Origin: a virus
IMG/VR virus record: IMGVR_UViG_3300008952_000066
Coordinates: 1-53,538 of that record
Strand: one strand, 5' to 3'
Length of the DNA stretch: 53,538 nt
The position numbers were made by a program, and so were the translations under genes. The notes under the pieces are model-generated. The model was given only the letters and a program-made list of their open reading frames with translations. It did no database searches and had not been told where the DNA came from. Shown here piece by piece: positions 3,895-37,317 of the stretch; the stretch's first letter is position 1, and every line of letters starts with the position of its first letter.

Positions 3895-4245
3895 ATGCCA
3901 AGTCGTATTCAGCAAAGAGTTGAACAAGTCCCTACTGGTGACATCACAGGCGTAACTGCTGGTGATGGTTTATCGGGTGGAGGTTCTAGCGGTGCGCTTA
4001 CGTTGGCTCTTGATGTTAATGAATTATCTACTGCTACTGCCGTTTCAACTGATTACATAGCTATTGAAGATGTCACTGACAATTCAACTAAGAAGGCACT
4101 CGTTTCAGACATAGTGGCTTTAGGTGACATAACAGAGGTGACAGCAGGGACAGCACTTTCGGGTGGTGGCAGTTCAGGAGCAGTCACCTTGAATGTTGTG
4201 GTTGCTAACGATGATTTGATACTAGCCTCGCAAGTGTACGGCTAA
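3895..4245 (+). CDS. Fibre repeat-module protein
   Basis: The 116-residue protein consists of two copies of a module starting GDITGVTAGDG and GDITEVTAGTA (residues 15 and 77), each followed by LSGGGSSGA and a short beta segment. The linker between them contains 'STDYIAIEDVTDNSTKKALVSD'-like residues. The tail protein across the contig join (52952 to 222) has the same module-linker-module order, so one derives from the other by duplication. It is probably a fibre or collar component. AGGAG precedes the ATG, and the stop overlaps the endolysin start. Confidence 0.8.
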   Translation: MPSRIQQRVEQVPTGDITGVTAGDGLSGGGSSGALTLALDVNELSTATAVSTDYIAIEDVTDNSTKKALVSDIVALGDITEVTAGTALSGGGSSGAVTLNVVVANDDLILASQVYG

Positions 4246-4982
4246 TGAATATCCCTACGACTAAAAGCAACATCCAGCTTGACTTGTTGCACCCGAAATT
4301 CGTGACAAGACTTGAAGCGTTCTTTTCGGATAGTCGTATCAAAGGAAAAGTTAAAGTCAACTCAGGTTGCAGATCGTATGCGACACAAATGGGTTACTAC
4401 AAAGCCTATAAAGCAGGTAAGGGTAATCTTGCCGCTAACCCTGATAGACGTTTCGGTGTTAAAGGTTTAGACGGTCAAGGCATCTGGCGAGGCTCTTGGC
4501 ACATGGAACAGCTTGACGGATTTTGCTACGCTGTGGATCTAGCTCAATGGAGCAAAAAGATTTCCAAACCTGCTATAAACGACATCGCTACAGAGTATGG
4601 GATTGTCCCAACCATTAAAGATAAAGAATGGTGGCATCATCAGCCACGTTCAGGTGTTGACTGGTTTCCTGCTCCAGCATTAACAGGCGAACCGTCAGAG
4701 AAAGTAGACGCTCCTGAACCAGTAACCGACTGGGCAGGGATACTCGCCGCTATTGAAATGCAACGCAAAGAAGTAACAGCTTTTCCTTTACGCAAAGGAG
4801 CTAAAGGTGGATCTGTGAAAACTGTTCAATCCTGTCTCGGTAGACTAGGCTTTGAGTGCGGAATAGCTGACGGTCTTTATGGTCGTAAAACAGTTTGGGC
4901 AGTTAAACAATTTCAGAAAAAGCGAGGTTTACGAATAACTGGTACAGTTGACGTTAATACCTTTGACGCATTATTTAAGTAA
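4245..4982 (+). CDS. Endolysin: M15-type peptidase plus peptidoglycan-binding domain
   Basis: The 245-residue protein is predicted to cut the peptide part of host peptidoglycan at lysis. Residues 15-140 look like a VanY/M15 zinc carboxypeptidase: 'GCRSYATQ' (residue 41), then H86 in 'GSWHM', D98 in 'YAVDLA', and the H131-H132 pair in 'WWHHQP' as likely zinc and catalytic residues. Residues about 175-245 form a peptidoglycan-binding type 1 domain ('VKTVQSCLGRLGF', 'DGLYGRKTVWAVKQFQ'). There is no signal peptide, so export depends on a holin, found two genes downstream. Confidence 0.85.
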   Translation: MNIPTTKSNIQLDLLHPKFVTRLEAFFSDSRIKGKVKVNSGCRSYATQMGYYKAYKAGKGNLAANPDRRFGVKGLDGQGIWRGSWHMEQLDGFCYAVDLAQWSKKISKPAINDIATEYGIVPTIKDKEWWHHQPRSGVDWFPAPALTGEPSEKVDAPEPVTDWAGILAAIEMQRKEVTAFPLRKGAKGGSVKTVQSCLGRLGFECGIADGLYGRKTVWAVKQFQKKRGLRITGTVDVNTFDALFK

Positions 4983-4995
4983 GGAGAAATAAAAA

Positions 4996-5364
4996 ATGCT
5001 ACTCACCCACAAAAGGGCTGACCGTGTGTCTACTGTAAGAGTTCAAGAAGCTTTAAGAGATAAAGGTTACGCATCAGGTCACACAGATGGCAGATATGGA
5101 ATAACAACTATGAAAGCTGTGGTTGCTTTCCAGAATGACAACAAACTTGATCCAACAGGTCATGTTGATGACGATTTGTTCGCCATGATTGTGGATGGGG
5201 CAAAAGCTCCAGCTAAAAAAGCTCCAGCTAAAAAAGCTCCTGCTAAAAAAGCTCCTGCAAAGAAAACAGAAGCTAAGAAAGAACCAGTTAAAAAAGCTCC
5301 TGCTAAGAAAACTACTACTGCTAAAAAACCAGCCGCTAAGAAACCTGCGGCTAAGAAAGGCTAA
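4996..5364 (+). CDS. Peptidoglycan-binding domain protein with Ala/Pro/Lys repeat tail
   Basis: Of 122 residues, the first 58 form one peptidoglycan-binding type 1 domain ('[19 protein letters not shown]', '[10 protein letters not shown]'). The remaining residues are repeats of APAKK, encoded by a 15-base minisatellite at about 5207-5345. The strongly basic tail resembles histone H1-like C-termini and could bind anionic wall polymers or nucleic acid. There is no catalytic domain. Its place between endolysin and holin suggests a targeting or accessory lysis protein. SD AAGGAG lies 9 bases upstream of the ATG. Confidence 0.8.
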
Positions 5365-5366
5365 TA

Positions 5367-5633
5367 ATGAATTTGAAATTAGATTTAGACCAGCTTAAAG
5401 ATGTTGCTGAAAGAGCAATAATGACATACGTGCAATCCGTAGTCGGTTTGATTGCCGCTTCAGGAATGACAGATTTGTCAATGTCGAGTGCTAAAACCAT
5501 TGCCGTTTCAGCGGCTCCTGCGGCATTATCAATTATTAAAGGCTATTTTGCTTCAGTTCTTCCAATGGGAGACAAGTCGGCTTCAGTTCTTCCTATGGCG
5601 AAACCAGCAGGTAAAGAATATAAAGCTGAGTAA
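5367..5633 (+). CDS. Holin, r1t-like
   Basis: The 88-residue protein contains 'VAERAIMTYVQSVVGLIAASG' then 'AKTIAVSAAPAALSIIKGYFAS'. This AERA-x-x-T-x-x-QS and A-x-x-AAL-S-x-I-K pattern is that of the r1t holin family of phages of Gram-positive hosts. Two weakly hydrophobic helices (residues about 18-35 and 43-60) fit a small pore former. Its place right after the two wall-targeting genes supports the call. The C-terminus repeats 'SVLPM' twice. Its stop abuts the stop of the opposing HNH gene with no space for a terminator. Confidence 0.75.
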   Translation: MNLKLDLDQLKDVAERAIMTYVQSVVGLIAASGMTDLSMSSAKTIAVSAAPAALSIIKGYFASVLPMGDKSASVLPMAKPAGKEYKAE

Positions 5634-11239: not shown

Positions 11240-11497
11240 ATGGATGGATTTTGGGATAGAGAATTTACTCCTGCTCCTTTCATGGAAGATGCAGTTTGCA
11301 AAAATGCAGATCCTACTATTTTCTTCGTGAACAAGGGAGATACAGGAATTGAAGCTAAAAAACTTTGCGAAAAATGTCCTGTAAAACAAGCTTGTTTGGA
11401 TTTCGCTATTGAAACCCACGAACGGTTTGGGATTTGGGGTGGAATGAACTTCAGAGAAAGAAACGCCGAACTGAGAAGAAGAAAAAAGGTTGTTTGA
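11240..11497 (+). CDS. WhiB family iron-sulfur transcription factor, copy 1
   Basis: The start is ATG 11240, with GGAGGAA upstream, giving 85 residues. It has the four Cys of WhiB proteins: one in 'AVCKN' and then C-EK-C and C after five residues ('LCEKCPVKQACLDF'), followed by the G[IV]WGG turn ('FGIWGGM') and a basic tail ('RERNAELRRRKK'). WhiB proteins bind a 4Fe-4S cluster and regulate transcription together with the main sigma factor in Actinobacteria. Phage WhiBs can block host WhiB function. A second WhiB gene follows directly. Confidence 0.92.
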   Translation: MDGFWDREFTPAPFMEDAVCKNADPTIFFVNKGDTGIEAKKLCEKCPVKQACLDFAIETHERFGIWGGMNFRERNAELRRRKKVV

Positions 11498-11724
11498 TGA
11501 ACGACTGGCTAAAACATGCGGCTTGCAAAGACATGGCTTCAAATATTTTCTTTTCCACTAGAGGAGAATCTACTGAACCTGCAAAACTTATCTGCGAAAA
11601 TTGTCCTGTGAAAGAACCTTGTTTGGATTATGCGCTTGCTAATAATGAAACAATAGGTGTATGGGGTGGAATGTCTCGCAGGCAAAGAAGAAATGAAGCT
11701 CGGAGAAGAAAGCAGGCAGTGTGA
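11497..11724 (+). CDS. WhiB family iron-sulfur transcription factor, copy 2
   Basis: The 75-residue protein begins MNDWLKHAACKDM and has the WhiB set: Cys in 'AACKD', then 'ICENCPVKEPCLDY' and 'IGVWGGMSRRQRRNEARRRK'. It starts within TGATG, overlapping the stop of copy 1, so the two are translationally coupled. The two copies are clearly related but not identical, indicating an old duplication or separate acquisition with different targets. Confidence 0.92.
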   Translation: MNDWLKHAACKDMASNIFFSTRGESTEPAKLICENCPVKEPCLDYALANNETIGVWGGMSRRQRRNEARRRKQAV

Positions 11725-13667: not shown

Positions 13668-13910
13668 ATGGAAGATGCAGTTTTAACAAAATTAAAAGAT
13701 TCTGAAGAATTAACTAAAGAAATGAGAAAATTACAGAATCAAATAGTTGAGTGCAATAATAAACGGCGAGAATTGTGGCATCAAGCTTCTACAAGTGGAG
13801 TATCTTATACCAAAATCGCTGAACAGAGTGGAGTTGTTAAACAAACTGTTTACAACGAATTACGCAAAAGGAAAAATTTGCCTCATGTTGTCGGTAAGAT
13901 TAATGAATGA
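13668..13910 (+). CDS. Small helix-turn-helix protein
   Basis: The 80-residue protein has a coiled-coil N-terminus ('EELTKEMRKLQNQIVECNNKRRELWHQAS') followed by a helix-turn-helix ('VSYTKIAEQSGVVKQTVYNELRKRK', residues about 45-70). It is likely to bind DNA as a small regulator. AGGAGGG precedes the start. It ends inside the start of the epimerase gene (ATGA). Confidence 0.65.
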   Translation: MEDAVLTKLKDSEELTKEMRKLQNQIVECNNKRRELWHQASTSGVSYTKIAEQSGVVKQTVYNELRKRKNLPHVVGKINE

Positions 13911-14902
13911 AAGTTCTTATTGCAGGTGGGGCAGGTTTTATAGGTTCTCATCTGACAGAACGCCTTTTAAGCAGAGGCGATGAAGTTACCGTAGTCGATT
14001 CTTTAATTACAGGCAGGGAATCTAATTTAGATTTCGTTAAAGAACATCCAAAATTTGCGTTTCACAAAGTTGACATCAATCACCCTCAAGCTGTTCAATG
14101 GCTTAATTTCAGTCCTTATCAGAAAACAGGCGGATTTGATGCTGTGTTGAATTTAGCGAGTCCTGCATCACCTGATGATTTTAAAACAATCCCTATTCAT
14201 ATTTTGGAAACTGGGAGTGTGGGAAATATGAGGCTTTTAAAATTAGCAAAAAAATCTAATGCTAAATTTCTTTTAGCTTCCACTAGCGAAGTTTATGGCG
14301 ATCCTGAAATTCACCCTCAAAAAGAAACGTATAACGGTTCTGTTAATCCTGTCGGTAGAAGAAGCTGTTATGACGAAGCTAAAAGATTTGCCGAAGCCAC
14401 AACTATGTCATTCCATAATGTTTATGAGACTGATACTCGAATAGCAAGAATCTTTAATACTTACGGAGAGCACATAAATCCGCATGATGGCAGAGTTATA
14501 AATACTTTCATTAAGCAAGCACTTACAAATAAACCTTTGCCTATTTACGGAAAAGGAACTCAAACAAGGTCTTTTTGTCACGTTTGGGATCTTGTAGAAG
14601 GTTTGGTGAAACTTTTGGATTTAGATAATCCTTCAGTTCAGCACCAACCGTTTAATCTTGGTAATCCTACAGAACTTACAGTTTTTTCTTTAGCTGAAGC
14701 GATTATAGAAATGACTAATTCAGATAGCGAAATAGAGTTTCTTCCTATGCCTTTGGAAAGAGAAGGCGATCCACAATTAAGGTGTCCTGATATTACTTTG
14801 GCTAAATTACATCTTAAATGGGAACCTGAAATTAGTTTCCATGAAGGCTTAAGAAGAACCATCAATTATTTTATTGAGAAAGAACGAATTACAGCCATAT
14901 AA
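13907..14902 (+). CDS. NAD-dependent UDP-sugar decarboxylase/epimerase (UXS-like)
   Basis: The 331-residue extended short-chain dehydrogenase has the NAD-binding 'GGAGFIGSH' (residues 7-15), the 'LASPASP' segment (about residue 85), 'ASTSEVYGDPEIHPQ' and the catalytic Tyr-Lys pair in 'RRSCYDEAKRFAEA'. 'GRVINTFIKQAL' and 'TRSFCHVWDLVEG' complete the fold. The STSEVYGDP-HPQ-E and CYDE-KR motifs match UDP-glucuronate decarboxylase (UDP-xylose synthase) better than plain GalE, though substrate cannot be proved from sequence. It may supply a nucleotide sugar for the glycosyltransferases at 19991 and 21850. Confidence 0.8.
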   Translation: MKVLIAGGAGFIGSHLTERLLSRGDEVTVVDSLITGRESNLDFVKEHPKFAFHKVDINHPQAVQWLNFSPYQKTGGFDAVLNLASPASPDDFKTIPIHILETGSVGNMRLLKLAKKSNAKFLLASTSEVYGDPEIHPQKETYNGSVNPVGRRSCYDEAKRFAEATTMSFHNVYETDTRIARIFNTYGEHINPHDGRVINTFIKQALTNKPLPIYGKGTQTRSFCHVWDLVEGLVKLLDLDNPSVQHQPFNLGNPTELTVFSLAEAIIEMTNSDSEIEFLPMPLEREGDPQLRCPDITLAKLHLKWEPEISFHEGLRRTINYFIEKERITAI

Positions 14903-16477: not shown

Positions 16478-16703
16478 AATTTTCCTCAAGCTTTTTATAA
16501 GCTCTACGTTTCGATTCTGTTAAGCCTCCCCAAATGCCGTGTGCAATATTTTCTTCTATGGCGTATTCGAGGCATTTCTGTTTAATTGGGCAATGGTTAC
16601 AAATAAAAATTGCTAAATCGAATTTTCCACCTTGTTCGGGAAACCACCACTTTGTAGGAAAGCCTTTGCAGACAGCATCATCTTGCCAAGCGAAAAGTCC
16701 CAT
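16476..16703 (-). CDS. WhiB family iron-sulfur transcription factor, copy 3
   Basis: The 75-residue protein begins MGLFAWQDDAVCKGF and has the WhiB pattern 'ICNHCPIKQKCLEY', with the first Cys in 'AVCKG' and the turn 'HGIWGGL' followed by a basic tail. It is alone on the minus strand, convergent to the DUF932-like gene and divergent from the promoter at 16883. The separate control suggests a different time or role from the pair at 11240. SD AGGATGA precedes the start. Confidence 0.92.
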   Translation of the reverse strand: MGLFAWQDDAVCKGFPTKWWFPEQGGKFDLAIFICNHCPIKQKCLEYAIEENIAHGIWGGLTESKRRAYKKLEEN

Positions 16704-19990: not shown

Positions 19991-20878
19991 ATGCCTAAAC
20001 TACCCAAATATCCTATTTACATTCCAACTAAAGGCAGATGGAATACTCCATTCACTATAAAAGCCTTCCAAAAAGACGAAGTTCCTATATATGTAGTTGT
20101 TCAACCGCAAGAACTGGAAGAATACGAAAAGCATTGTTCATCTCCTACCACAACCTTCCTTACCCTGCCTTTCAGTAATCCTGTAGACGAAGAAGGAAAC
20201 CCATGCGGTCTTTTAGCAACTCGTAATTGGATAATGGATCACTCCATAGAATTAGGCGCAACTCGCCATTGGCAATTTGACGACAATCAAGATAAATTCA
20301 TGCGGTATTACAAAGGGAGAAGCATCCCAATACAATCCCATCTTGCTTTAAGAATCGTTGAAGATTTCACCGACAGGTACAAAAACATAGCAATATCAGG
20401 TTTCGATTACGAAATGTTTGTCGTAAGAGGAAAACAAACACAACCATTCACACGCAACTGTAGAGTTTATTCAGCTTCACTCATAAACAACGAAGCAAAC
20501 ATACGTTGGAGACTCCGATACAACGATGACGTAGACATCTGCCTCCAAGCCTTATCAACAGGATACTGGTCAACCATTCTGTTCAGAGCAGTTCACATCC
20601 GCAAAAGAAAAACCATGACAGTAAAAGGCGGCAACACAGACGACCTTTACCAAGATGACGGAAGAAACATAATGGCACGCTCATTAGAAAGAGTATGGCC
20701 GGGAGTTGTCAAAACCAAAAGAAGATTCAACAGACCACAACACGTTGTCTCACACTCATGGGGACATTTCGACAACCCATTAATACCAATAGAAAACCCC
20801 GAACCCACACCCGATTACCCAATGCAGATAGAAGGAAACCCAAAATCCAAATCATTGCGTAACGCACTTGACCTCTGA
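19991..20878 (+). CDS. TET-associated-type glycosyltransferase (TAGT-like), copy 1
   Basis: The 295-residue protein has 'PIYIPTKGRWNTPFTIKAF' (residues 7-25), 'YVVVQPQELEEYEKH', 'GLLATRNWIMDHSIELGATRHWQFDDNQDKF' (about 75-105) and 'DDVDICLQALSTGYWS'. These are the IPxKGR, VVxPxExxxY, RNxI and W-x-x-DD elements of the GT-A-fold glycosyltransferases found next to TET/JBP base oxidases in phages, which glycosylate modified bases in DNA. The DDN/DD pairs are likely metal and UDP-sugar ligands. No TET gene is seen here, so the acceptor is open. Confidence 0.75.
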   Translation: MPKLPKYPIYIPTKGRWNTPFTIKAFQKDEVPIYVVVQPQELEEYEKHCSSPTTTFLTLPFSNPVDEEGNPCGLLATRNWIMDHSIELGATRHWQFDDNQDKFMRYYKGRSIPIQSHLALRIVEDFTDRYKNIAISGFDYEMFVVRGKQTQPFTRNCRVYSASLINNEANIRWRLRYNDDVDICLQALSTGYWSTILFRAVHIRKRKTMTVKGGNTDDLYQDDGRNIMARSLERVWPGVVKTKRRFNRPQHVVSHSWGHFDNPLIPIENPEPTPDYPMQIEGNPKSKSLRNALDL

Positions 20879-20894
20879 ACACTAAGGTCTGAAC

Positions 20895-21845
20895 ATGGAA
20901 AATAGAAAAAACAAAACGATTGTGACAGGTGGAGCAGGTTTTATAGGCTCACATCTCGCTGAAAAACTGGTTAAACGAGGAGATGAAGTCCTTGTAATAG
21001 ATAATTTCTCTACTGGTTCATTAAAGAATCTTGTTCAAATAGAAAAAGAAATAGAAATTATCAATATGGATATCGCTAATCCTTTAATAAATGATTTGGT
21101 GAGAAGATTTAAACCTGATGTTGTTTTTCATTTAGCCGCTCAAATGGATGTACGCCACTCTGTGGGAAATCCACTCGATGATGCTTATACAAATATCATA
21201 GGTTTGCTTAATGTTTTAGAAGGAGCTTGTAGCGAAACATTAAAGAAAATAGTTATCGCTTCTTCAGGGGGAACAATTTATGGGGAATTGGATAAAACAC
21301 TTATTCCAGTTAAAGAAACGGCTGTTCGTAAGCCTTTATCGCCTTATGGCGTAGCAAAAGTAGCAGGCGATCTTTATTTAGACGCTTATCGCTTTCTTCA
21401 TGGATTATCAGGAACGAGTCTCGCTTTGGGGAATGTATATGGTCCTCGACAAGATCCTTTAGGGGAAGCAGGAGTAATTTCTATTTTTGCAGGAACTTTA
21501 TTGGAAGGTAAACAGGCAGTTATTTATGGAGATGGGAAACAAACAAGAGATTTTATTTACATTGATGATGTGGTGGAAGCTTTTTTAAGTGCCGAAGAAT
21601 ATGAAGGTGAAGAACTTTTCAATATTGGAAGCGGTGAAGAAACTTCAATAAACGAATTACATGAGATGTTGGCTTCAATAATAGATCCTACTGCTGAACC
21701 GAAATGGGAAAATAACCGCAAAGGGGAATTACAATACTCGGCTTTAGATTCTTCATTGGCACAATCGAAACTTGACTGGAAACCTGTTATTGACTTACAG
21801 GAAGGTTTAAACCGTACTGTTAATTGGTTTAAAACAAAGGAATAA
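20895..21845 (+). CDS. UDP-sugar 4-epimerase-like (GalE family)
   Basis: The 316-residue extended SDR enzyme has 'TGGAGFIGSHLAEKL' (residues 9-23), 'VIDNFSTGSLKNL', 'VFHLAAQMDVRHSV', 'IASSGGTIYGE' and the catalytic Y-x-x-x-K in 'LSPYGVAKVAG', then 'GNVYGPRQDPLGEAGVISIFAGTLLEG' and 'TRDFIYIDDVVEAFL'. This is the GalE/UDP-glucose 4-epimerase type. It sits between two glycosyltransferase genes, so it probably supplies their donor sugar. The protein is different in subfamily from the UXS-like enzyme at 13907, so two UDP-sugars may be made. Confidence 0.85.
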   Translation: MENRKNKTIVTGGAGFIGSHLAEKLVKRGDEVLVIDNFSTGSLKNLVQIEKEIEIINMDIANPLINDLVRRFKPDVVFHLAAQMDVRHSVGNPLDDAYTNIIGLLNVLEGACSETLKKIVIASSGGTIYGELDKTLIPVKETAVRKPLSPYGVAKVAGDLYLDAYRFLHGLSGTSLALGNVYGPRQDPLGEAGVISIFAGTLLEGKQAVIYGDGKQTRDFIYIDDVVEAFLSAEEYEGEELFNIGSGEETSINELHEMLASIIDPTAEPKWENNRKGELQYSALDSSLAQSKLDWKPVIDLQEGLNRTVNWFKTKE

Positions 21846-21849
21846 TGCT

Positions 21850-22626
21850 ATGCAGAAATTTCCTATATATATCCCCAGCAAAGGAAGGGCAGAACGTAGC
21901 AGAACTGTAGAAGAATTAGAAAAAGGTAACTGCACAGATTATTTCATAGTTGTTGAACCGCAAGATTATGAAGCGTATTCGGAAGCCCATCATGAAAAAA
22001 ACCTTCTTTGCTTAGATAAAAATGATGAAGGAATTTATTACGTGCGTAACTTCATTCTTCAACATGCGTTAAATAACGGTTATGAATACGTTTGGCAGGT
22101 TGATGACGATTTGCAATTCGCAAGACACTCAAAAAACAGTAAACCTATCCTTAAACCTATTCACCCAACAGAAGCTTTTATAGAAATAGAACAGGTTGTA
22201 GAAAAATTTTCCAATATTGGAGTGGCAGGTGTAAGAGACAGCACTTACGCTTGGAGCCAACCTGAACGAATCAGTATAAACAAACAAGCATCGGGCTGTT
22301 GGTTAATAAAAACAGATACAGGATGCAAATTCCGAAAAGACATCATCGAAGATACTGATTTCAATATGCAAATACTTGTAGCAGGATACTGCACGCTCAA
22401 TTTCAATCGTTTAGTTTACGTTAATCCACCTACAGGAACTGTTGAGGGAGGAAACAGTAACGTCAATTTTCTTTTACAGCAAAAGAATTTGGTAAAAGCG
22501 TGGCATGGATGTTTCACTTTGAAATACAACAGAATAGGAACTGTTCATACAGAAAACCTCAGTTCACGAATAGCTCCAAGTCGGATATGGAGCAAATTTC
22601 CTCAACGCCCTAAACGAAAGGTTTAA
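21850..22626 (+). CDS. TET-associated-type glycosyltransferase (TAGT-like), copy 2
   Basis: The 258-residue protein has 'PIYIPSKGRAERSRTVEEL' (residues 5-23), 'YFIVVEPQDYEAYSE', 'GIYYVRNFILQHALNNGYEYVWQVDDDLQF' (about 57-86), 'ASGCWLIKTDTG' and 'EDTDFNMQILVAGYCTLNF'. The element order equals that of copy 1, but the sequences are divergent outside the motifs. A phage with two such enzymes could add two sugars in series, or glycosylate two acceptors. Start ATG 21850 follows AAAGGAAT. The terminase small subunit follows directly. Confidence 0.75.
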   Translation: MQKFPIYIPSKGRAERSRTVEELEKGNCTDYFIVVEPQDYEAYSEAHHEKNLLCLDKNDEGIYYVRNFILQHALNNGYEYVWQVDDDLQFARHSKNSKPILKPIHPTEAFIEIEQVVEKFSNIGVAGVRDSTYAWSQPERISINKQASGCWLIKTDTGCKFRKDIIEDTDFNMQILVAGYCTLNFNRLVYVNPPTGTVEGGNSNVNFLLQQKNLVKAWHGCFTLKYNRIGTVHTENLSSRIAPSRIWSKFPQRPKRKV

Positions 22627-26063: not shown

Positions 26064-29000
26064 ATGGCTGGCGAAATAAAGGTTGGTCTGTCTAAAAAGA
26101 TTCACCACATCCCACTTTCTTGGGATGTTAATAAAGCTAAATCTAATCATCAGCCTAAATTCCGACCTGTTGGTGACGCAATACTTCGAGGCAGAGAAAA
26201 ATCTGTAGGTAAAATAATGGAACAGATGTTTCTAGCTATGCCACCTGTTGAACTTTGGATAGATGGCAAATTAACTCCCGAACAGTATTTGGAAAGAGCT
26301 GAAAAAATATCAGAACCTTACATGCAACAAATTGCGGCTTTATTGCAAGTTTCTTTTAACGAAGGTGCGATTATGCAACAGGACAGAATACGTGCTGATG
26401 CTAATGAGCAATTAAAACGGTTACGAAGCCCTTTGCGTTTAACAGATGAAAAAGGGAAAGTAACGAAAGCAACTGTTGGGGGAATTGATGTAGGTGAAGA
26501 TCCAAAAATCATTTGGTCACCTGTGGGCATAGAAGCCTTCGACGAAGTAAGTTCTGCTTCAGTTCAATACGCACAATTCCGTTCAGCGACTCTTGTTACC
26601 GCAATGCTGGAAGAACAACAGCGAGTTATTCAAGAACTTATAGGAGAATCTTTCACAGCGTCACAGACTTTCTCTACAGGAAGAACAGTTACAGGTTTAA
26701 CAACAGGACAAACTTCAAGAGCTTTATTTGAAGTGTTAGAAGAAATGAACCCGAATACTCCTTTAGGCAGGCAACTCGCTCAAATGCGAGGAATAAACTC
26801 GGCAGGTTTAACTCACCCATGGGAAAAAGCAGTTTTTAGACGTTCAGAAAAAATAGCTCAACAATTAGCTGATAAGGGAATTGGAGGAGCAAGAGCTTAC
26901 AACAAGATAAGAGACGATTCCAATAAATACGCTAAGAAACTTCGCCGTTCAAGAGCAAGGGTGATTTCTCGTACTGAGATTAAACGAGCGCAAGTAGCAG
27001 GACAACTTGACTCTATGCAGGAAGCTGTAAATTCAGGTTTAGCTGATCCTAGAACAGCAGGTAAAAAATGGATTACAGGTTCTACTGACGTTTGCCCTAT
27101 ATGCACAAGTCTTGGTTTCGGTAGAGCTATTCATATACGGCAATCTTTCCCGAATGTGGGGGATGGACCTCCTGCTCATCCTAATTGTCGTTGCGATTTG
27201 GATTTCGCTCATCGGATAAAAGATGCACCACAAGCTGTCGGTGCAGGTAACCCTAACTTTCCTGCTGGTAGTCCTGAGAACCCGATTGTTTGGCAATTCA
27301 ATTCAGGTTTCCAATCTTCACCTAATGTGACTACTGCTTTCAGACCGCCTTCGGTTCCTAGAACTCCTAGAAAACCTGTTAAGGCTCCTTCTCCATCTGC
27401 TCAATACAGTGAAATTCCTGATGTTGATGATGAAATAACAGAAAAAATTGTTGAAGTTTATGAAACCACAGAAGGCACACATCAACAAAAAGCTGATGCC
27501 GTATACCAATATCTTGGTTATAAGGGTAAACCAAAAGTTGTTGAATGGGAAGATTTAGGTAAGCATGTAGATGAAAGCCCTGCTGGAGAAATGCGCCGTG
27601 TGGTGCGAGAAACTAAAGATAAAACAAACCCAATAACAGGTGTTGAAGAAACTTTTTCAAAAGAAGAAATAGCAGAACAATTTAGAACAGGACAAGCTTT
27701 CACAGGCGAAGGTTTAAGTGGTACAGGTACTTACACTTATGAAGGAACAGCAGGAGCATTTGATGAATATGCAATGAGCCGAAAAGGGAAGTGGGAAACT
27801 GTCGAAATGACATTAGCGCCTGACGCTAAAATTATGACTTTAACTGATGAAACTGAAAGGGCACTTAAAAAGAAATATAAAGATTTATACCCTGATGGAC
27901 CTACAGATATAGGGTTAATTCTCGCTTCTAAAGGATTTGACGCTATAAGATTAGTGGATTTAGACGATGAATTTGGAAATGTTATGATGATCATTTTAAA
28001 TCGTTCTAAAGTTATTGTCAGTAAGGTGCATGGGGCAGAAATAGGAAAACTTAAACCTTTTAAACGACCTCCTCCTCCAACAGCTAGTGTCCCACCTACA
28101 CCTACTCCTGCCACAGTTGATGAAGTCATAGAAGAAATAGATGCGGTTCCTTTGCAAAGTAAACCCACTCCTACTGAAACAGGTAAAACGTGGGAAGATG
28201 ACGCTTTCCACGAAATAAACGCAACTGTTACTTACACCGCAGGGCGAATGGGTACTGTTATAGAGGAAGCTATAGATGAAGTATCACAAGTTTTAGGTAA
28301 CCCAATTCCATCTAATGCACTTAAAACTCATATTAAAACTGCACCAATTAAAAGAACAAGTAAAACAGGAGACAATGTAAGAGTTTTAGGTGATTTTTCT
28401 CCTAGTCGAAAAATTCAGTTACCTAGACAACCTAAAAGACCAAAAAAAATGGATTTGTCTACATTTGAAACCCGAGGGGGATATGGCACTTCCCAAGCCA
28501 TTGACCATAGACGTTGGGCTAAAGCTAGAGAACTTGATCGTGAACTTGGAGATGATGTAACTACTTTCACGGATGAGCTTTTAGAAGAAATGGCTGAAGA
28601 AGGCGAGTTTCCTTTCGCTAATTGGAAAGAAGCAGGTTACAAATCTGAACAAGATTTCAAAAACGCTGTTGAAGATTTTTACACAAAAGAAGAAAAATAT
28701 TGGAAAGATATTGAAGACATTTTCAATGGTATAGATCCTGCAACTGGTGAAGCGTTTGAAACTTTTGCGACTGGAGAATTAAAAGATCCACGTTATGAAG
28801 CAGGTTATGGGGCTTTGGATGATGTACCTGCTCGTAGAGATATACGAATCGGGGAAGAAAATAGTTACAAAAAAGGAACACCTGAATACAATTCCAGTTT
28901 GAAATCAACCTTCCATCATGAGAACGGTCACAACATTGATTTCATGCACTTAAGTACTAATGCTCCGAGTGGGGATGACATCGCAGCCATTGAACGTTTC

Positions 29001-29495
29001 TTGAATAACTTGCCTAGAAATGGAACTTTACCTGCTGACGTTAACGGTTTACAGCCTCGTTCTTCAACATTACTTAGAGTGCTTGATTTAAAAATGCAAA
29101 AATTTGGAATGACTAGGGCAGAAGCTATTACAAGTTTACAAGACGAAGCTGATATGGCTTTAATGAGATTATTTCAGTTAATAGAAGATTCTGAAGCAAC
29201 AAAACGCATAGACACTTATGTTCAAGGTTTAATAGCAAAAGCTAAAACTCCCCAAGCTAGAGAACAAGCAGTAAATAAAGGAAATTATTTAACAGATCCT
29301 ACTGAAAGAATAGCAAGAATATTTCAACAATATATTCCTACTAGAGTAGGCTCAGTAACAGACCGAAAACTTCTCGCAGAAGCGATAGCAGGTGATGATG
29401 GGATTACAGGTGAATTGTTTTCTGTGGGAGAGTTTGAAGGAGTTATTGTGCCTGCTTTTGAAAAATGGCTTCGAGCAGTTGGGATGATTGAATAA
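26064..29495 (+). CDS. MuF-type minor head protein fused to ADP-ribosyltransferase-like and zinc-protease-like domains
   Basis: At 1143 residues the protein is about three times longer than a normal MuF protein. Residues about 1-385 are the MuF head part, ending in the Cys motif C344-x2-C347 and 'HPNCRCDLDF' (372-381). Residues about 490-665 resemble an ART domain: Arg in 'RRVVRETKD', 'EQFRTGQAFTGEGLSGTGTYTYE', 'MTLAPDAKIM', 'KGFDAIRLVD', 'NRSKVIVS'. A Pro/Thr linker follows. Residues about 940-1143 contain a zincin motif H952-E953-N-G-H956 and a later Glu1081 in 'TERIARIFQQYI'. These would be injected effectors, inferred from known MuF-toxin fusions. Confidence 0.75.
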   Translation: MAGEIKVGLSKKIHHIPLSWDVNKAKSNHQPKFRPVGDAILRGREKSVGKIMEQMFLAMPPVELWIDGKLTPEQYLERAEKISEPYMQQIAALLQVSFNEGAIMQQDRIRADANEQLKRLRSPLRLTDEKGKVTKATVGGIDVGEDPKIIWSPVGIEAFDEVSSASVQYAQFRSATLVTAMLEEQQRVIQELIGESFTASQTFSTGRTVTGLTTGQTSRALFEVLEEMNPNTPLGRQLAQMRGINSAGLTHPWEKAVFRRSEKIAQQLADKGIGGARAYNKIRDDSNKYAKKLRRSRARVISRTEIKRAQVAGQLDSMQEAVNSGLADPRTAGKKWITGSTDVCPICTSLGFGRAIHIRQSFPNVGDGPPAHPNCRCDLDFAHRIKDAPQAVGAGNPNFPAGSPENPIVWQFNSGFQSSPNVTTAFRPPSVPRTPRKPVKAPSPSAQYSEIPDVDDEITEKIVEVYETTEGTHQQKADAVYQYLGYKGKPKVVEWEDLGKHVDESPAGEMRRVVRETKDKTNPITGVEETFSKEEIAEQFRTGQAFTGEGLSGTGTYTYEGTAGAFDEYAMSRKGKWETVEMTLAPDAKIMTLTDETERALKKKYKDLYPDGPTDIGLILASKGFDAIRLVDLDDEFGNVMMIILNRSKVIVSKVHGAEIGKLKPFKRPPPPTASVPPTPTPATVDEVIEEIDAVPLQSKPTPTETGKTWEDDAFHEINATVTYTAGRMGTVIEEAIDEVSQVLGNPIPSNALKTHIKTAPIKRTSKTGDNVRVLGDFSPSRKIQLPRQPKRPKKMDLSTFETRGGYGTSQAIDHRRWAKARELDRELGDDVTTFTDELLEEMAEEGEFPFANWKEAGYKSEQDFKNAVEDFYTKEEKYWKDIEDIFNGIDPATGEAFETFATGELKDPRYEAGYGALDDVPARRDIRIGEENSYKKGTPEYNSSLKSTFHHENGHNIDFMHLSTNAPSGDDIAAIERFLNNLPRNGTLPADVNGLQPRSSTLLRVLDLKMQKFGMTRAEAITSLQDEADMALMRLFQLIEDSEATKRIDTYVQGLIAKAKTPQAREQAVNKGNYLTDPTERIARIFQQYIPTRVGSVTDRKLLAEAIAGDDGITGELFSVGEFEGVIVPAFEKWLRAVGMIE

Positions 29496-30945: not shown

Positions 30946-31374
30946 TTGGATGACCAACAGCTAACCGAAGCGTTAGAACATATACAGGAACGTCTGCAAT
31001 TAAGTGTTGATGCAACGATAACTAAAACTCAAGGTGTAAAAGCTAGAGTTGAGAAAACACAAAGCTTAATTGAAACGATTAAAGACAATATTGCTTATAT
31101 AGTTGGTTTACCTGCCACACTTGGCGGTGCTTTCGGGTTTCTGTGGGACTCATCGGGGGATGAAGCGGCATTAACTCATAAAGTAACAATGCTTGAAGAA
31201 GCGGTAGCAGGATTAAAAGCAGAGAATGATCTGCTAGGTGGCGGTACTAAAAACTTCGCCATCGACATGAGCGCAGTTCCTAGCGGTTCCGTAACCGTCA
31301 TAATTGTTGCATCAATAATAGTTGTAAGTGTTGGGTTACTTGCCATGTATCAAAGACGGCGTAAGAAGCGTTGA
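30946..31374 (+). CDS. Coiled-coil membrane protein, 142 residues
   Basis: It starts with TTG, behind GGAGG at 6 bases. Residues 1-45 form a coiled coil ('LTEALEHIQERLQLSVD', 'VKARVEKTQSLIETIKDNI'), residues 46-65 are weakly hydrophobic ('IAYIVGLPATLGGAFGFLW'), a second coil follows (70-90) and a clear transmembrane helix lies at about 112-134 ('SVTVIIVASIIVVSVGLLAMY'), ending in RRRKKR. The stop overlaps the lipoprotein start (TTGA), so the two are co-translated and may act together in the envelope. Confidence 0.7.
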   Translation: MDDQQLTEALEHIQERLQLSVDATITKTQGVKARVEKTQSLIETIKDNIAYIVGLPATLGGAFGFLWDSSGDEAALTHKVTMLEEAVAGLKAENDLLGGGTKNFAIDMSAVPSGSVTVIIVASIIVVSVGLLAMYQRRRKKR

Positions 31375-34300
31375 TTAAAAGAGTAGTGGCTGTTCTTTCG
31401 ACAGCATTACTCTTTGCCTCTTGCGCTCAAGGCGATACAACTGAATCAACACCAACAACAACCGAGCCTGTTGTCACAACTGTCCCTGTTGAAGTTCTCG
31501 AACCTGTAACGACCACACCTGTAGAAAAAGACGCATCAGCTTCTTTGGAGTACACACCTGTTCAAGATGGTTTTTCTTTTGAAAACTTTGGAGGAGGGGA
31601 AGCTCCAGCGGAATTAACAGTCAATATGACTCGCAGGTTTTATGGTGACAATCAAGTCTGTTCAGATGTAACAGATAACGAATGCACTCCATATCCTGTA
31701 ATCCTTCAACTCATATCTCAAGCTAATCGTTCAATGAAAGGTGGTTTATGTGAAGGTTTAACTGTTTTATCTTTAAGGTTAGCCAATGATCCACTTGCAT
31801 TAGCAGGCTTTCAAAATGCTGAAGAAGTAGCAACACTTATCAAACAAGATCCTGCTTTGCTTTCAGAAATTGCTTACTGGTATGTAACACAGTTCGCTAT
31901 AGAGGTACAACAACAAGCCGCACAGTTTTTAGAACTGTCCCCTTTAGCTTTAGCACGAATACTTTATGAAGATTTCGCTAAAGCAGAAACAGGTCAACCA
32001 TCAGTCGGGTACACGATAGGTATTTACTCTGAGCAAGGCGGTCACGCCGTAACACCTTACAAAGTGACCACAGACGGTGACACATGGAGAATCTATATAT
32101 ATGACTCTAATTGGCCTTCAACAGAACGATGGATTGATGTGAATGAAGAAGGTTGGAATTACGCATTAGCCGCAACTAACCCAACTGAACAAACTGAAGC
32201 GTGGGGTGGCGGAACTGGAACAATGGAATTAACTCCAATGACTTCACGTTCGGGACCTTTTACTTGCAGTTTTTGCCCACAAGAAGAAAATGAAGAATCG
32301 GGAACACTTCTTACCGTTGCGGCTTCAGGCAGTAAACAAATGGCTATTCAAATACAAACAGAAACAGGTGAACGGCTCGGCTATTACGATGGCAAATTTG
32401 TTAATGAAATAGAAGGCGCAACTTACAGGTATTTAATATCAGGAACTTCAACGGCTGATCCTGTAATGGTTTTCTTACCTGCTGGTATAGAAGATTTTAG
32501 TGCAGATGTTGATGTTATAGACATTCCCACCCCAGCGGTTACATCGCCAACAGCGCCTACGGAGGGGGAAGTTGAAGATTCACCGCCAGAGCAGGAACAA
32601 GAACAAGATACCACACAACAATTTTCGCTTCTCATATTGGATGATGAGAAATCAGTTCAAATAGAAGCTGATATATCTGTAGAAGAACCTATTGCAGATG
32701 AACAAATAATAGAAACAGAATCCTTAATAAATTTTTCTGAAGAATCTGTAGAGATAGCTGACATTGAAGAAGCAACAGTCGCTATAGCGGTTGATGCTTT
32801 GGAAGTTGAAATAGACGTACAGCAAGGACAGCAGATAGCAGTACAGTTTGTTCCTGATCCTCCACCTGTGATTGAAGCAGGTCAACCTGAACCAGTTGAA
32901 ATAGCTCCAGCAATGTTAGATATTTCTATAGCAGACAACACAGGCGAACTGTTAGCTGAAGTCGAAGTTGATTTAACACCCTTCCGAGTTGAGGACAGAC
33001 AAGAAGAAACAGAGTTAGAAGAAGAACCTGAACAGGCTCCCATAGTGCTTGCTATTTCGTTTGATGAGGAGATCGGTGAAGTAGAACAAGTAGAGGAGTC
33101 TATCGAAGCTTGGGTGGCTTCAGACGCTGAATATTTCCAAGCAATTATCGAAGATCGAGTAGAGGAAGTGTTAGGTGAAACATGGGTAGAGGAATTACAA
33201 GAAACAGATGATTGGGAAACAGAAGAAGAATTTGAAGAATTTGATTTAACAGAAATCCTTTTAGCAGTAGAGGAAGAATACTGGGAAGATGAAATTTGGG
33301 AAGAAATTGATTACACAGAAGAATGGTTTGAAGAAGAAGCTGAATTAGAACTTTTTATTATCTATGAAGAAGAAGATTGGTGGGATGAAGAACCTGAAGA
33401 ATGGTTAGAGGAGGAATGGTTTGAAGAATTATTATTGGAAGAAGAATGGCTCGAAGAAGAATGGATTGATCCTGAGCCTTTATTTGAAGAATTTGAGGAG
33501 GAAGAAATTGAAGAAATTATTGAAGAAATTATTGAAGAAATTTGGTTTGAAGAAGAAATCACAGACGAGGAATGGGAGCAGTTGGAAGAATCCGAATGGC
33601 TACCCGAACCCTTTGAGGAATTTGAACAGGAAATAGAATTAGAGGAATTATTTGAGGATGATTTAGTTCCTACAACCACATGGATGGAAGAATGGGACTT
33701 TGATGAGTTCGGTGAAATACCTGAAGATATGCTCGAATGGTCAGATGATGAATTTGATTTATTTGAAGAATTTTTAGGTAACACAACCGAAGAAGAAGAA
33801 GAAGAAGTCTGGGAAGAAGATCCTTTTCTTAACACAGAAGAAGAATGGGAGGAATGGGAAGATGAGTTTTGGTTTGAGGATTCTGAACTAGAAGATGATT
33901 GGATAGAGGATTGGATACCAGAGGAAGAAGAAATTGAAGAAGAAGAAGAAACCCCACCACTTGAAGAAGAAGAATGGGAGAGTAACACCGAAGAAGAAGT
34001 CAATGACTTCGAGGACATTTTAGAACAAGAATGGGATAATCCTTATGCAGATTGCATTGGCACTTCAGCTTGTGCTGATGCTCCTGCTGGTTTCGATACT
34101 TGGGCGCAATGGGAGTCAGCTAATAATCCTAATTATGTAGCCCCTGAAGTTGGCGATCCTGATTATGTGCCACCTCCACCACCGCCACCAGTTTATGTTC
34201 CTGTCTATTGGGCTTATTCTAATAATTTAGTTGCCAGTAGGATTAGTAGTGCCAGCGAGTCAACTGTTACAACGGTGTTGGCTAGAGGCGAAGATGGACA

Positions 34301-35042
34301 TTGGTACGAGACACACACAACAGAAATGACAACGACTACCACGACTTACACTACGAATGGAACAGAGCAGTTCGGTTGTGTAGATAATGCTTGCGCTTTA
34401 TCAGGTACTACATGGGATGATGAAACAAGTGAACAAACTGTAGCAGTAACTACTTCATCAACAGTAGTTCCAGCTTCTTGCTCTCAAGGCGGGTTTACTG
34501 GTCTAGGAGACTGGTGCATAGTTGATTCGAGTAGTCGAAACGATTATGACCATGTTGCTTTCTCGGTTCCTACTGCGGCTGAAGAAAATGAAGCCTGCGA
34601 CTGCACAGATGGCGATGGGCTTATGGATATTCGTATAGACGCTGAAAGCAATTTAACTGGGGTGCAGTTCAACTCTAATAACGAACACGCTGATCCTTAC
34701 ATATACCTGAACCATGACACAGACTCAGATGATGGTGACCATTCAGGAGACATGGATGCGATAACAGTTGGTAATCAAATCACATATAACGATGACGGTG
34801 GTAGAGATTGCGGTAACACTTGCAACAATCCTCCTAGCACAGCAACAGACCCTGACGAGACACCGAACGTAACACTCTCCAACGGTGAACCAGTTATCAA
34901 CAATGTTGCCGACTCTTGGGATTCTCGGATAACAAGAGAACTGTCAGCAGGTGATTATGTTGTAAGGGCTTCGGTTTACAATAACGCTAATAGCGGATGG
35001 TATCGCTTAACAATAAGAGATGCAGATGTTACATACCCATAA
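31371..35042 (+). CDS. Giant lipoprotein with cysteine-peptidase-like domain and Glu/Trp-rich region
   Basis: It starts with TTG, overlapping the previous stop. The 1223-residue protein has a lipoprotein signal (MIKRVVAVLSTALLFASC; Cys18). Residues 70-260 resemble a papain/C39-like fold, with C127 in 'GGLCEGL', H225 in 'GGHAVTPY' and D245/N247 in 'YDSNWP'. Residues about 594-888 are Glu/Trp/Phe/Asp-rich with no Lys, Arg or His. A Pro-rich segment and a Thr-rich part follow. The last 150 residues ('DGDGLMDI', 'ITRELSAGDYVVRASVYNNANSGWYRLTI') look like a PPC-type beta domain. Probably anchored outside the host membrane. Confidence 0.75.
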   Translation: MIKRVVAVLSTALLFASCAQGDTTESTPTTTEPVVTTVPVEVLEPVTTTPVEKDASASLEYTPVQDGFSFENFGGGEAPAELTVNMTRRFYGDNQVCSDVTDNECTPYPVILQLISQANRSMKGGLCEGLTVLSLRLANDPLALAGFQNAEEVATLIKQDPALLSEIAYWYVTQFAIEVQQQAAQFLELSPLALARILYEDFAKAETGQPSVGYTIGIYSEQGGHAVTPYKVTTDGDTWRIYIYDSNWPSTERWIDVNEEGWNYALAATNPTEQTEAWGGGTGTMELTPMTSRSGPFTCSFCPQEENEESGTLLTVAASGSKQMAIQIQTETGERLGYYDGKFVNEIEGATYRYLISGTSTADPVMVFLPAGIEDFSADVDVIDIPTPAVTSPTAPTEGEVEDSPPEQEQEQDTTQQFSLLILDDEKSVQIEADISVEEPIADEQIIETESLINFSEESVEIADIEEATVAIAVDALEVEIDVQQGQQIAVQFVPDPPPVIEAGQPEPVEIAPAMLDISIADNTGELLAEVEVDLTPFRVEDRQEETELEEEPEQAPIVLAISFDEEIGEVEQVEESIEAWVASDAEYFQAIIEDRVEEVLGETWVEELQETDDWETEEEFEEFDLTEILLAVEEEYWEDEIWEEIDYTEEWFEEEAELELFIIYEEEDWWDEEPEEWLEEEWFEELLLEEEWLEEEWIDPEPLFEEFEEEEIEEIIEEIIEEIWFEEEITDEEWEQLEESEWLPEPFEEFEQEIELEELFEDDLVPTTTWMEEWDFDEFGEIPEDMLEWSDDEFDLFEEFLGNTTEEEEEEVWEEDPFLNTEEEWEEWEDEFWFEDSELEDDWIEDWIPEEEEIEEEEETPPLEEEEWESNTEEEVNDFEDILEQEWDNPYADCIGTSACADAPAGFDTWAQWESANNPNYVAPEVGDPDYVPPPPPPPVYVPVYWAYSNNLVASRISSASESTVTTVLARGEDGHWYETHTTEMTTTTTTYTTNGTEQFGCVDNACALSGTTWDDETSEQTVAVTTSSTVVPASCSQGGFTGLGDWCIVDSSSRNDYDHVAFSVPTAAEENEACDCTDGDGLMDIRIDAESNLTGVQFNSNNEHADPYIYLNHDTDSDDGDHSGDMDAITVGNQITYNDDGGRDCGNTCNNPPSTATDPDETPNVTLSNGEPVINNVADSWDSRITRELSAGDYVVRASVYNNANSGWYRLTIRDADVTYP

Positions 35043-35050
35043 GGAGGATA

Positions 35051-35290
35051 ATGAAAGTTTGGATTGACCAAGATTTATGTACTGGAGATGGTTTATGCGA
35101 AGAACTATGTGGTGACATATTTTACGGTCACGATGACGGATTGTTTTACGTTAAAGAAGCAGGTACGCCCACTCCTAAAGAACCTACTCACAAGATGAGT
35201 GAAACAGTTAATGTCCCTGACGAATTAGCCGAAGCTGTTATTGAATCTGCCGAAGAATGTCCCGGCGAATGTATTTTTGTGGAACCATAG
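35051..35290 (+). CDS. Single-cluster ferredoxin
   Basis: ATG 35051 follows AAGGAGG; 79 residues. 'VWIDQDLCTGDGLCEELCGDIFYGHDDGLFYV' gives C-x5-C-x3-C, and 'EECPGECIFVEP' supplies the C-P. This is the layout of actinobacterial 3Fe-4S/4Fe-4S ferredoxins that pass electrons to P450s and other redox enzymes. The phage codes no obvious partner, so it may serve a host enzyme or help to load WhiB proteins. It ends antisense over the next gene by 53 bases. Confidence 0.85.
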   Translation: MKVWIDQDLCTGDGLCEELCGDIFYGHDDGLFYVKEAGTPTPKEPTHKMSETVNVPDELAEAVIESAEECPGECIFVEP

Positions 35291-36729: not shown

Positions 36730-36948
36730 GCTGATTAACCTTAGCGGATATTTAGATCATGCGGTATCTTTTACACAATTTGCAAAGATGGTAAGGTTGT
36801 TAAAGAACTCAGAGGAGTGTATATCGGTATAAGATCATCGTGGCGTGAATTACGTCAACACAGCCGAAGAAGCAAAGCTGGCTTAGAAAAAATAATACAA
36901 GCAGAGCCACCGAGCTACACTTCTCGCAAGACCAACGGAGGTCAACTC

Positions 36949-37317
36949 TTGAGCAAACAAAAACTATTCCACTATAAAGCAACAGTAGGTCGTGTAGTGG
37001 ATGGAGACACAATAGACGTAACTCTTAATTTGGGTTTCGATATTTATTACAAAGGCAGAATCAGGTTCATGGGCATTAACGCTCCTGAGTCGAGAACGAA
37101 AGACGCTGTTGAGAAAGAAGCAGGACTCGCCGCTAAACGCTATGTCGAGGATTGGATAAGCGCTTTGGAACACAAAGTTATTATCGAAACTTCTTTAGAC
37201 GAGAAAGGTAAGTTCGGTAGGATTCTTGGCAGGATATTAAACGAAGAAGGCGAGTGTTTGAATGAGGAGATGGTGAGCTTAGGTCACGCCACTCCTTATC
37301 ATGGCGGTAAGCGATAA
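36949..37317 (+). CDS. Thermonuclease (SNase-like) protein
   Basis: TTG 36949 has GGAGGT six bases upstream, giving 122 residues (MSKQKLFHYKATVGRVVDGDTIDV). The staphylococcal nuclease core is clear: 'VVDGDTIDVTLNLGF' (calcium site), 'RFMGINAPE', 'EKEAGLAAKRYVEDWI', 'DEKGKFGRILGRI' (Arg-rich) and 'LVSLGHA'-like end. The frame stays open upstream to 36745, and GTG 36817 could add 44 protein-like residues ('YIGIRSSWRELRQHSRRSKAG'). It probably degrades host DNA or RNA, or DNA ends. Confidence 0.8.
   Translation: MSKQKLFHYKATVGRVVDGDTIDVTLNLGFDIYYKGRIRFMGINAPESRTKDAVEKEAGLAAKRYVEDWISALEHKVIIETSLDEKGKFGRILGRILNEEGECLNEEMVSLGHATPYHGGKR

Follow-up and report, generated by a model that had tools for sequence, protein, structure and literature searches.

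What might a phage do with a lipoprotein of 1223 amino acids, 360 consecutive residues of which contain neither Lys nor Arg? The question is raised by IMG/VR virus record IMGVR_UViG_3300008952_000066, the whole of which (53,538 bases) was analysed here and is called the window. Two co-directional open reading frames (ORFs), both starting with TTG and overlapping in a TTGA, encode a coiled-coil membrane protein of 142 amino acids (the partner) and, immediately downstream, the giant lipoprotein, which joins an enzyme-like domain (the Cys domain) to a hyperacidic stretch rich in Glu and Trp (Table 1). An earlier account made from the letters alone (the sequence-only reading) had placed the lipoprotein in the host envelope, taken the overlapping membrane protein for its possible partner and known no phage family with this make-up, and all three points were supported. 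The cassette is real and conserved, is under strong selection and belongs to none of the named families tested.

A two-gene cassette in marine phage contigs

Scans of IMG/VR with the lipoprotein sequence and with alignments recovered more than 100 loci, on contigs that we read as marine from their metagenome sets and sequences, habitat being nowhere stated by the databases. Searches of Pfam, PHROGs, NCBIfam and PADLOC gave nothing significant for either the partner or the lipoprotein, and a tblastn search of INPHARED phages gave no relative of the Cys domain. Full-length relatives span 985-1733 amino acids with the reading frame open throughout; frameshifts, which the sequence-only reading had named beforehand as a finding that would count against it, were seen in none of them. 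All 37 non-redundant relatives inspected carry a lipobox-type signal (34 recognised by pattern, three by eye), as expected of a lipoprotein destined for the host envelope. One locus, L086, was considered as a planctomycete gene and rejected: it is a phage contig with the cassette, binned in a Phycisphaerae metagenome-assembled genome, probably through contamination.

The link between the two genes is close to absolute. The partner gene occurs exactly once in each of 25 tested records and lies upstream of the lipoprotein in 60 of 60 loci of a neighbourhood survey, which supports a true partnership. When the partner alone was used as the query, the lipoprotein motif was found in 74 of the 78 loci with enough downstream sequence; three of the other four are on known lipoprotein contigs, and the last has just 529 bases left. 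Within the partner, the hydrophobic segment motif DNIAYxxGLPAxxxGAFGF is conserved among relatives.

The Cys domain and its cellular relatives

The putative catalytic residues C127, H225, D245 and N247 are where the sequence-only reading had put them and, together with N119, are conserved with very few exceptions in 39 phage and 18 cellular rows. Between close relatives the ratio of non-synonymous to synonymous substitution rates (dN/dS) over residues 63-385 is about 0.055, which indicates strong purifying selection on this domain.

Outside phages, where the genomes sampled were those of Myxococcota and one other phylum, counterparts of residues 63-300 occur in secreted proteins (mostly lipoproteins by their leader) of 18 out of 284 Myxococcota genomes and in proteins on two Rhodococcus plasmids, one of them WP_307846829.1. 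These proteins (L163-L178, L087, L088 and L179) make up an undescribed secreted Cys-His-Asp/Asn family in their own right. The region after the Cys domain also matches them (hhalign probability 99.7, E 2e-24), in an alignment that carries conviction mainly as far as the VNEIPGA module and loosens on the way to residue 600. Judged by this alignment, residues 63 to about 540 are the counterpart of one whole cellular protein; since both the Cys domain and the region that follows it have cellular matches, the acidic part and the C-terminus are phage additions. A tree of 57 Cys domains places all phage rows in one branch (support 100/99). Gene neighbourhoods in Myxococcota showed no conserved partner gene, and no recognised wall-binding domain was found in the cellular relatives.

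In one clade of eight Myxococcota rows C127 is replaced by Ser, and the same clade lacks C299 and C302. This association between Cys127 and the CxFC motif (10 to 0 against 0 to 8) suggests that the motif works with the presumed nucleophile C127, although it amounts to about one evolutionary event because the Ser127 rows all fall into a single clade of the tree.

In structure modelling, a first model of residues 63-610, built from seven sequences, was unusable, with a mean predicted local distance difference test score (pLDDT) of 37; a second, from 41 sequences (39 phage and two Myxococcota), reached a mean of 61. In the second model C127 immediately precedes a helix, H225 falls within a strand and the strand after that ends with D245, a predicted placement as in papain-like enzymes. 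Foldseek searches of PDB and BFVD with this model returned nothing at E 0.001, their non-significant top row being the lysin Ly7917, and sequence searches of PDB with the single protein and with profiles gave no credible match to any chain. In the VIA comparison, the listed chains confined to the Cys domain were Alr0975 (Z 4.6), IdeS (4.4), PlyPy (3.9) and calpain (3.7), all of which we take to be clan CA enzymes. The Cys domain is thus likely, on the model, to be papain-like.

A hyperacidic stretch maintained by selection

The sequence-only reading had described about 290 Glu/Trp-rich residues without Lys or Arg, at residues 594-888. Its acidity stands (125 Glu, 26 Asp and 25 Trp in that interval), and its limits do not: R596 lies inside, and the true Lys/Arg-free run is longer, from residue 597 to 956, with 35% Glu, 8.6% Asp and 7.8% Trp in a protein of net charge -283. 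At the 10.4% Lys/Arg frequency of seven other large window proteins, the longest Lys/Arg-free run of which is 51 residues, a run of 360 residues has a chance of about 7e-18. Hyperacidity is common to all 35 members examined (net charge -152 to -457), the best 150 residues of each being 38-63% Asp plus Glu, while the length of the stretch varies, repeats such as EEWPEDWGPSPTESWDWTEEDWQAYDEE occur in some relatives, and the long Trp-rich run is absent in some.

In close relatives dN/dS in the stretch is 0.15-0.24. Substitutions there are mostly D/E exchanges and E/K changes are found outside it; no single-base E-to-K change within it was seen in the five pairs compared, which are not independent of each other. 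By this pattern, selection seems to keep the charge of the stretch and not its exact sequence.

Neither of two further structural proposals fared as well. An amphipathic alpha-helix was not supported, as the hydrophobic moment of the acidic stretch at 100 degrees was not above that of shuffled sequences (z 1.2); a signal appears instead at 70-80 degrees (z 4.0-4.6), equivalent to a periodicity of some 4.5-5 residues. For the proposed PPC-like C-terminus, four records, the window among them, were compared with PF04151, and none matched at a threshold as loose as E 10. The C-terminus of one relative, L077, does pass the cut-off of NCBIfam NF038127 (DVUA0089/FDP family; E 3e-9, 37.4 bits against a cut-off of 29), which the window protein does not reach, and this lends the PPC-like proposal indirect support.

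Host, lifestyle and genome position

WhiB genes are found in 19 of 25 records: the window, with three matches, and 18 of the 24 relatives tested. Among 14 control genomes only Corynebacterium was matched. WhiB has been used earlier to assign marine phages to actinobacteria (PMC3861242, PMC7771536), and its distribution here points to an Actinomycetota host, in line with the actinobacterium named in the sequence-only reading. A tyrosine integrase (PF00589) was not found in any of the 25 records, which may be incomplete, and a role as a prophage gene is therefore unlikely.

In the window the cassette sits between an XkdF-like protease and the scaffold/capsid genes, 25 kilobases (kb) from the lysis genes at 4245-5633. 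Its setting differs elsewhere. The survey covered 60 relatives, some near-identical and many truncated. By our count, at least 24 have a holin or endolysin gene (VanY-like/PG_binding) no more than about 3 kb away, head genes are nearby in nine, a WhiB gene is upstream on the other strand in 11, and genes for SNase and ferredoxin are near in 22 and 11, respectively. In L153, L006 and L049, though not in the window, tail-fibre-type genes are just upstream. The pair moves as a unit and occupies different late-region positions. Promoter and terminator scans of the cassette region found no more sites than shuffled sequences did.

Several neighbours deserve mention in their own right. The ferredoxin gene stands 3' of the lipoprotein in many relatives, L004, L006, L009 and L045 among them, and a conserved protein of about 270-290 amino acids, often starting MSILVHETF, is frequently encoded just 3' of the cassette; its L049 copy has no Pfam or NCBIfam match. 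Elsewhere in the window, 26064-29495 encodes a MuF-type head protein of 1143 amino acids; its long C-terminal extension lacks a Pfam match, and by eye an HExxH-like motif (HHENGH) and a stretch resembling an ADP-ribosyltransferase can be made out in it. Modified phage DNA is suggested by genes at 13907-14902 and 19991-22626 for sugar epimerase/dehydratase proteins and for two TET-associated glycosyltransferases (TAGT). Within the lysis cassette, a small PG_binding_1 protein (4996-5364) has a very basic, HC2-like (histone-like) C-terminal tail; at +18 in 50 residues this is the most basic stretch among the window proteins checked, and it is conceivable as an electrostatic counterpart of the acidic lipoprotein.

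Table 1. Features of the cassette and its surroundings (window positions unless a relative is named)
Feature	Position	Strand	Characters or evidence
Partner gene, 142 aa	30946..31374	+	variable charged N-terminus, hydrophobic segment, coiled coil, LLGGGTKN motif, C-terminal transmembrane (TM) helix, RRRKKR tail
Partner first hydrophobic segment, residues ~46-67; possible TM helix or membrane-dipping segment	31081..31146	+	hydropathy 1.4-1.6; invariant DNIA, GLP, GxFGF
Partner coiled-coil segment	31150..31239	+	sequence pattern and conservation
Partner C-terminal TM helix with RRRKKR tail	31282..31371	+	hydropathy up to 2.8
Giant lipoprotein gene, 1223 aa, TTG start overlapping partner stop (TTGA)	31371..35042	+	
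Lipoprotein signal, lipobox LLFASC, lipidated Cys18	31371..31424	+	sequence; lipobox-type signal in relatives
Thr-rich spacer, residues 19-62	31425..31556	+	sequence
Papain-like Cys domain (predicted), residues 63-300; N119, C127, H225, D245, N247; likely disulfide C97/C105	31557..32270	+	
CxFC motif, C299 and C302	32265..32276	+	occurs with C127, absent where C127 is Ser
Beta-rich region, residues ~300-540	32270..32990	+	homologous to C-terminal half of cellular relatives
Hyperacidic Glu/Trp-rich stretch without Lys/Arg, residues 597-956; Pro-rich run near 934-940	33159..34238	+	
Thr-rich segment, probably beta	34239..34457	+	sequence and alignment
C-terminal Asp/Gly-rich domain, residues 1030-1223; conserved GDWCI, SGWYRLTI	34458..35039	+	
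Ferredoxin gene, single 4Fe-4S cluster; often adjoins cassette in relatives	35051..35290	+	PF13459, E 4.9e-15
SNase-like nuclease gene; often near cassette in relatives	36817..37317	+	PF00565, E 5.8e-9
WhiB matches, two in neighbouring genes	11285-11464, 11506-11691, 16500-16688		
MSILVHETF-type protein genes	L004 13137-13988; L030 7346-8188; L049 12528-13400; L006 12343-13155		

Known systems compared

We class the cassette protein among phage surface lipoproteins, known examples of which have neither its enzyme-like domain nor its polyanionic stretch. Its closest monoderm parallel is Ltp of Streptococcus phage TP-J34, which consists of a lipid anchor, a spacer rich in Ser and a repeat domain; negative residues of the repeat domain touch the positively charged C-terminus of the tape measure (PMC3952083). 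Lipobox and spacer are shared; the giant lipoprotein is far larger, has the enzyme-like domain and lies among late genes, outside any lysogeny module. An Ltp-type trap for the phage's own tape measure was rejected, the tape measure of the window being acidic (net -94) and without a basic C-terminal region. T5 Llp, which is small, periplasmic, made early and active on an outer-membrane transporter (PMC9586334), and Cor resemble the giant lipoprotein as lipoproteins of virulent phages near receptor-binding genes, a position to which tail-fibre-type genes point in part of the relatives, and differ in being small, outer-membrane-associated and made in a diderm host, against 1223 amino acids and an actinobacterial host as indicated by WhiB. 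Two-component spanins likewise combine overlapping genes, a coiled-coil TM protein and a lipoprotein, but the clear TM helix of the partner is C-terminal where that of an i-spanin is N-terminal, and neither a giant lipoprotein nor an Actinomycetota host fits them. With the clan CA enzymes Alr0975, IdeS and the CHAP lysins the likeness lies in the order and surroundings of Cys, His and Asp/Asn and in weak model matches. The Myxococcota lipoproteins (L163-L174, L087 and L088) and the Rhodococcus protein have the Cys-His-Asp/Asn domain, CxFC and the VNEIPGA beta module in common with residues 63 to about 540, and lack both the long acidic Glu/Trp stretch and a visible partner gene beside them.

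What the cassette may do

Our tentative preference is for a papain-like ectoenzyme that is made late, anchored in the membrane and borne on an acidic stalk, and that changes the host envelope, most likely so as to block re-adsorption; we consider this explanation possible and short of probable. Late in infection a lipid anchor would fix the lipoprotein to the outer face of the cytoplasmic membrane of the host, and the outward coiled-coil loop of the partner, which the positive-inside rule would place outside the membrane if both hydrophobic segments span it, would hold it there. The Cys domain would cut or modify a proteinaceous envelope component, for example a phage receptor, while the Lys/Arg-free Glu/Trp stretch would act as an extended anionic stalk, carrying the C-terminal domain outwards and repelling or masking binding sites. 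The most likely benefit is that progeny and rival phages would be kept from re-adsorbing to the infected cell and its debris. Lipobox-type signals, conserved Cys-His-Asp/Asn residues, the low dN/dS of the Cys domain, selection on charge, the modelled placement of C127, H225 and D245, the four listed VIA chains of clan CA, the WhiB genes and the lack of an integrase in the 25 records all argue for this explanation. A block to re-adsorption is preferred because coliphage exclusion lipoproteins are encoded beside receptor-binding genes, much as the cassette lies just 3' of tail-fibre-type genes in the three relatives named above, and because superinfection exclusion keeps phages from adsorbing non-productively to cells already infected and to cell fragments (PMC9586334). 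Several points weigh against it. Fold confidence is low at a mean pLDDT of 61, and unrelated folds can likewise give VIA Z values in the range of 3.7-4.6; the exclusion lipoproteins known to date are small, and T5 Llp is an early product, in contrast to a giant lipoprotein among late genes; the Ser found at the Cys position in a cellular clade implies that the fold can serve without a thiol; and substrate, receptor, activity and expression time are all assigned by inference.

The neighbouring holin and endolysin genes would fit a lysis accessory equally well, and on account of this gene neighbourhood lysis is the strongest rival, if an unlikely one. The Cys domain would then cut peptidoglycan cross-links or envelope proteins outside the membrane, the partner tying it to the membrane or to the holin; one partner weakly resembles XhlA (E 0.0027, below cut-off), and the weak fold matches include the CHAP lysin PlyPy besides the non-significant Ly7917. 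Such a role is harder to square with the distance between cassette and lysis genes in the window, with relatives in which the pair is among head genes or adjoins WhiB, and with cellular relatives devoid of a recognised wall-binding domain. That acidity is universal and its charge under selection, while sequence and repeats vary, would also suit a charge trap, in which the Cys domain is secondary and the acidic stretch binds either divalent cations or cationic proteins and peptides, whether from the host, from competitors or from the injection machinery of other phages. The Ltp contact with a positive tape-measure terminus offers a precedent (PMC3952083); since the phage's own tape measure has no basic C-terminal region and the Cys domain is the more constrained of the two, we regard a trap as quite unlikely.

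Two further explanations carry less weight. The pair might be a late accessory cassette that travels together with the genes for ferredoxin and SNase, its frequent neighbours, and might change the dealings of the infected cell with metals, grazers or neighbouring cells, and its cellular relatives are indeed ordinary secreted proteins of free-living bacteria; yet a late gene of an apparently virulent phage leaves little time for metabolic benefit, and the neighbours may merely share a late transcript, so host conversion or a nutrient or predator function is improbable. Most improbable of all is a structural or tail-tip protein of the virion with a coincidental lipobox: head genes do surround the cassette in the window and some relatives, but the lipobox is there in every relative inspected, and the gene lies independently of any structural module and is linked instead to that of the membrane partner.

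Significance

The family is widespread in marine actinophage contigs and, apart from the C-terminal domain of one relative, scores significantly in none of Pfam, PHROGs, NCBIfam and PADLOC. It provides a well-bounded, testable unit of two genes, in which C127 is a clear candidate for the active site and the acidic module can be separated from the rest, and nearly all phages of this host group are uncultured. The roughly 360 residues without Lys or Arg, apparently held so by selection, are remarkable in themselves. A role of the cassette in lysis would make it an unusual means of breaching the envelope of actinobacteria; were it to act on receptors, it would be an enzymatic form of lipoprotein exclusion. 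In the boldest form of the re-adsorption block, which we hold to be doubtful, a membrane-anchored ectopeptidase on a polyanionic Glu/Trp stalk, with its dedicated membrane protein, would destroy or mask the receptor on infected actinobacteria and their debris, and the cassette would represent a new class of enzymatic exclusion that moves among marine actinophages.

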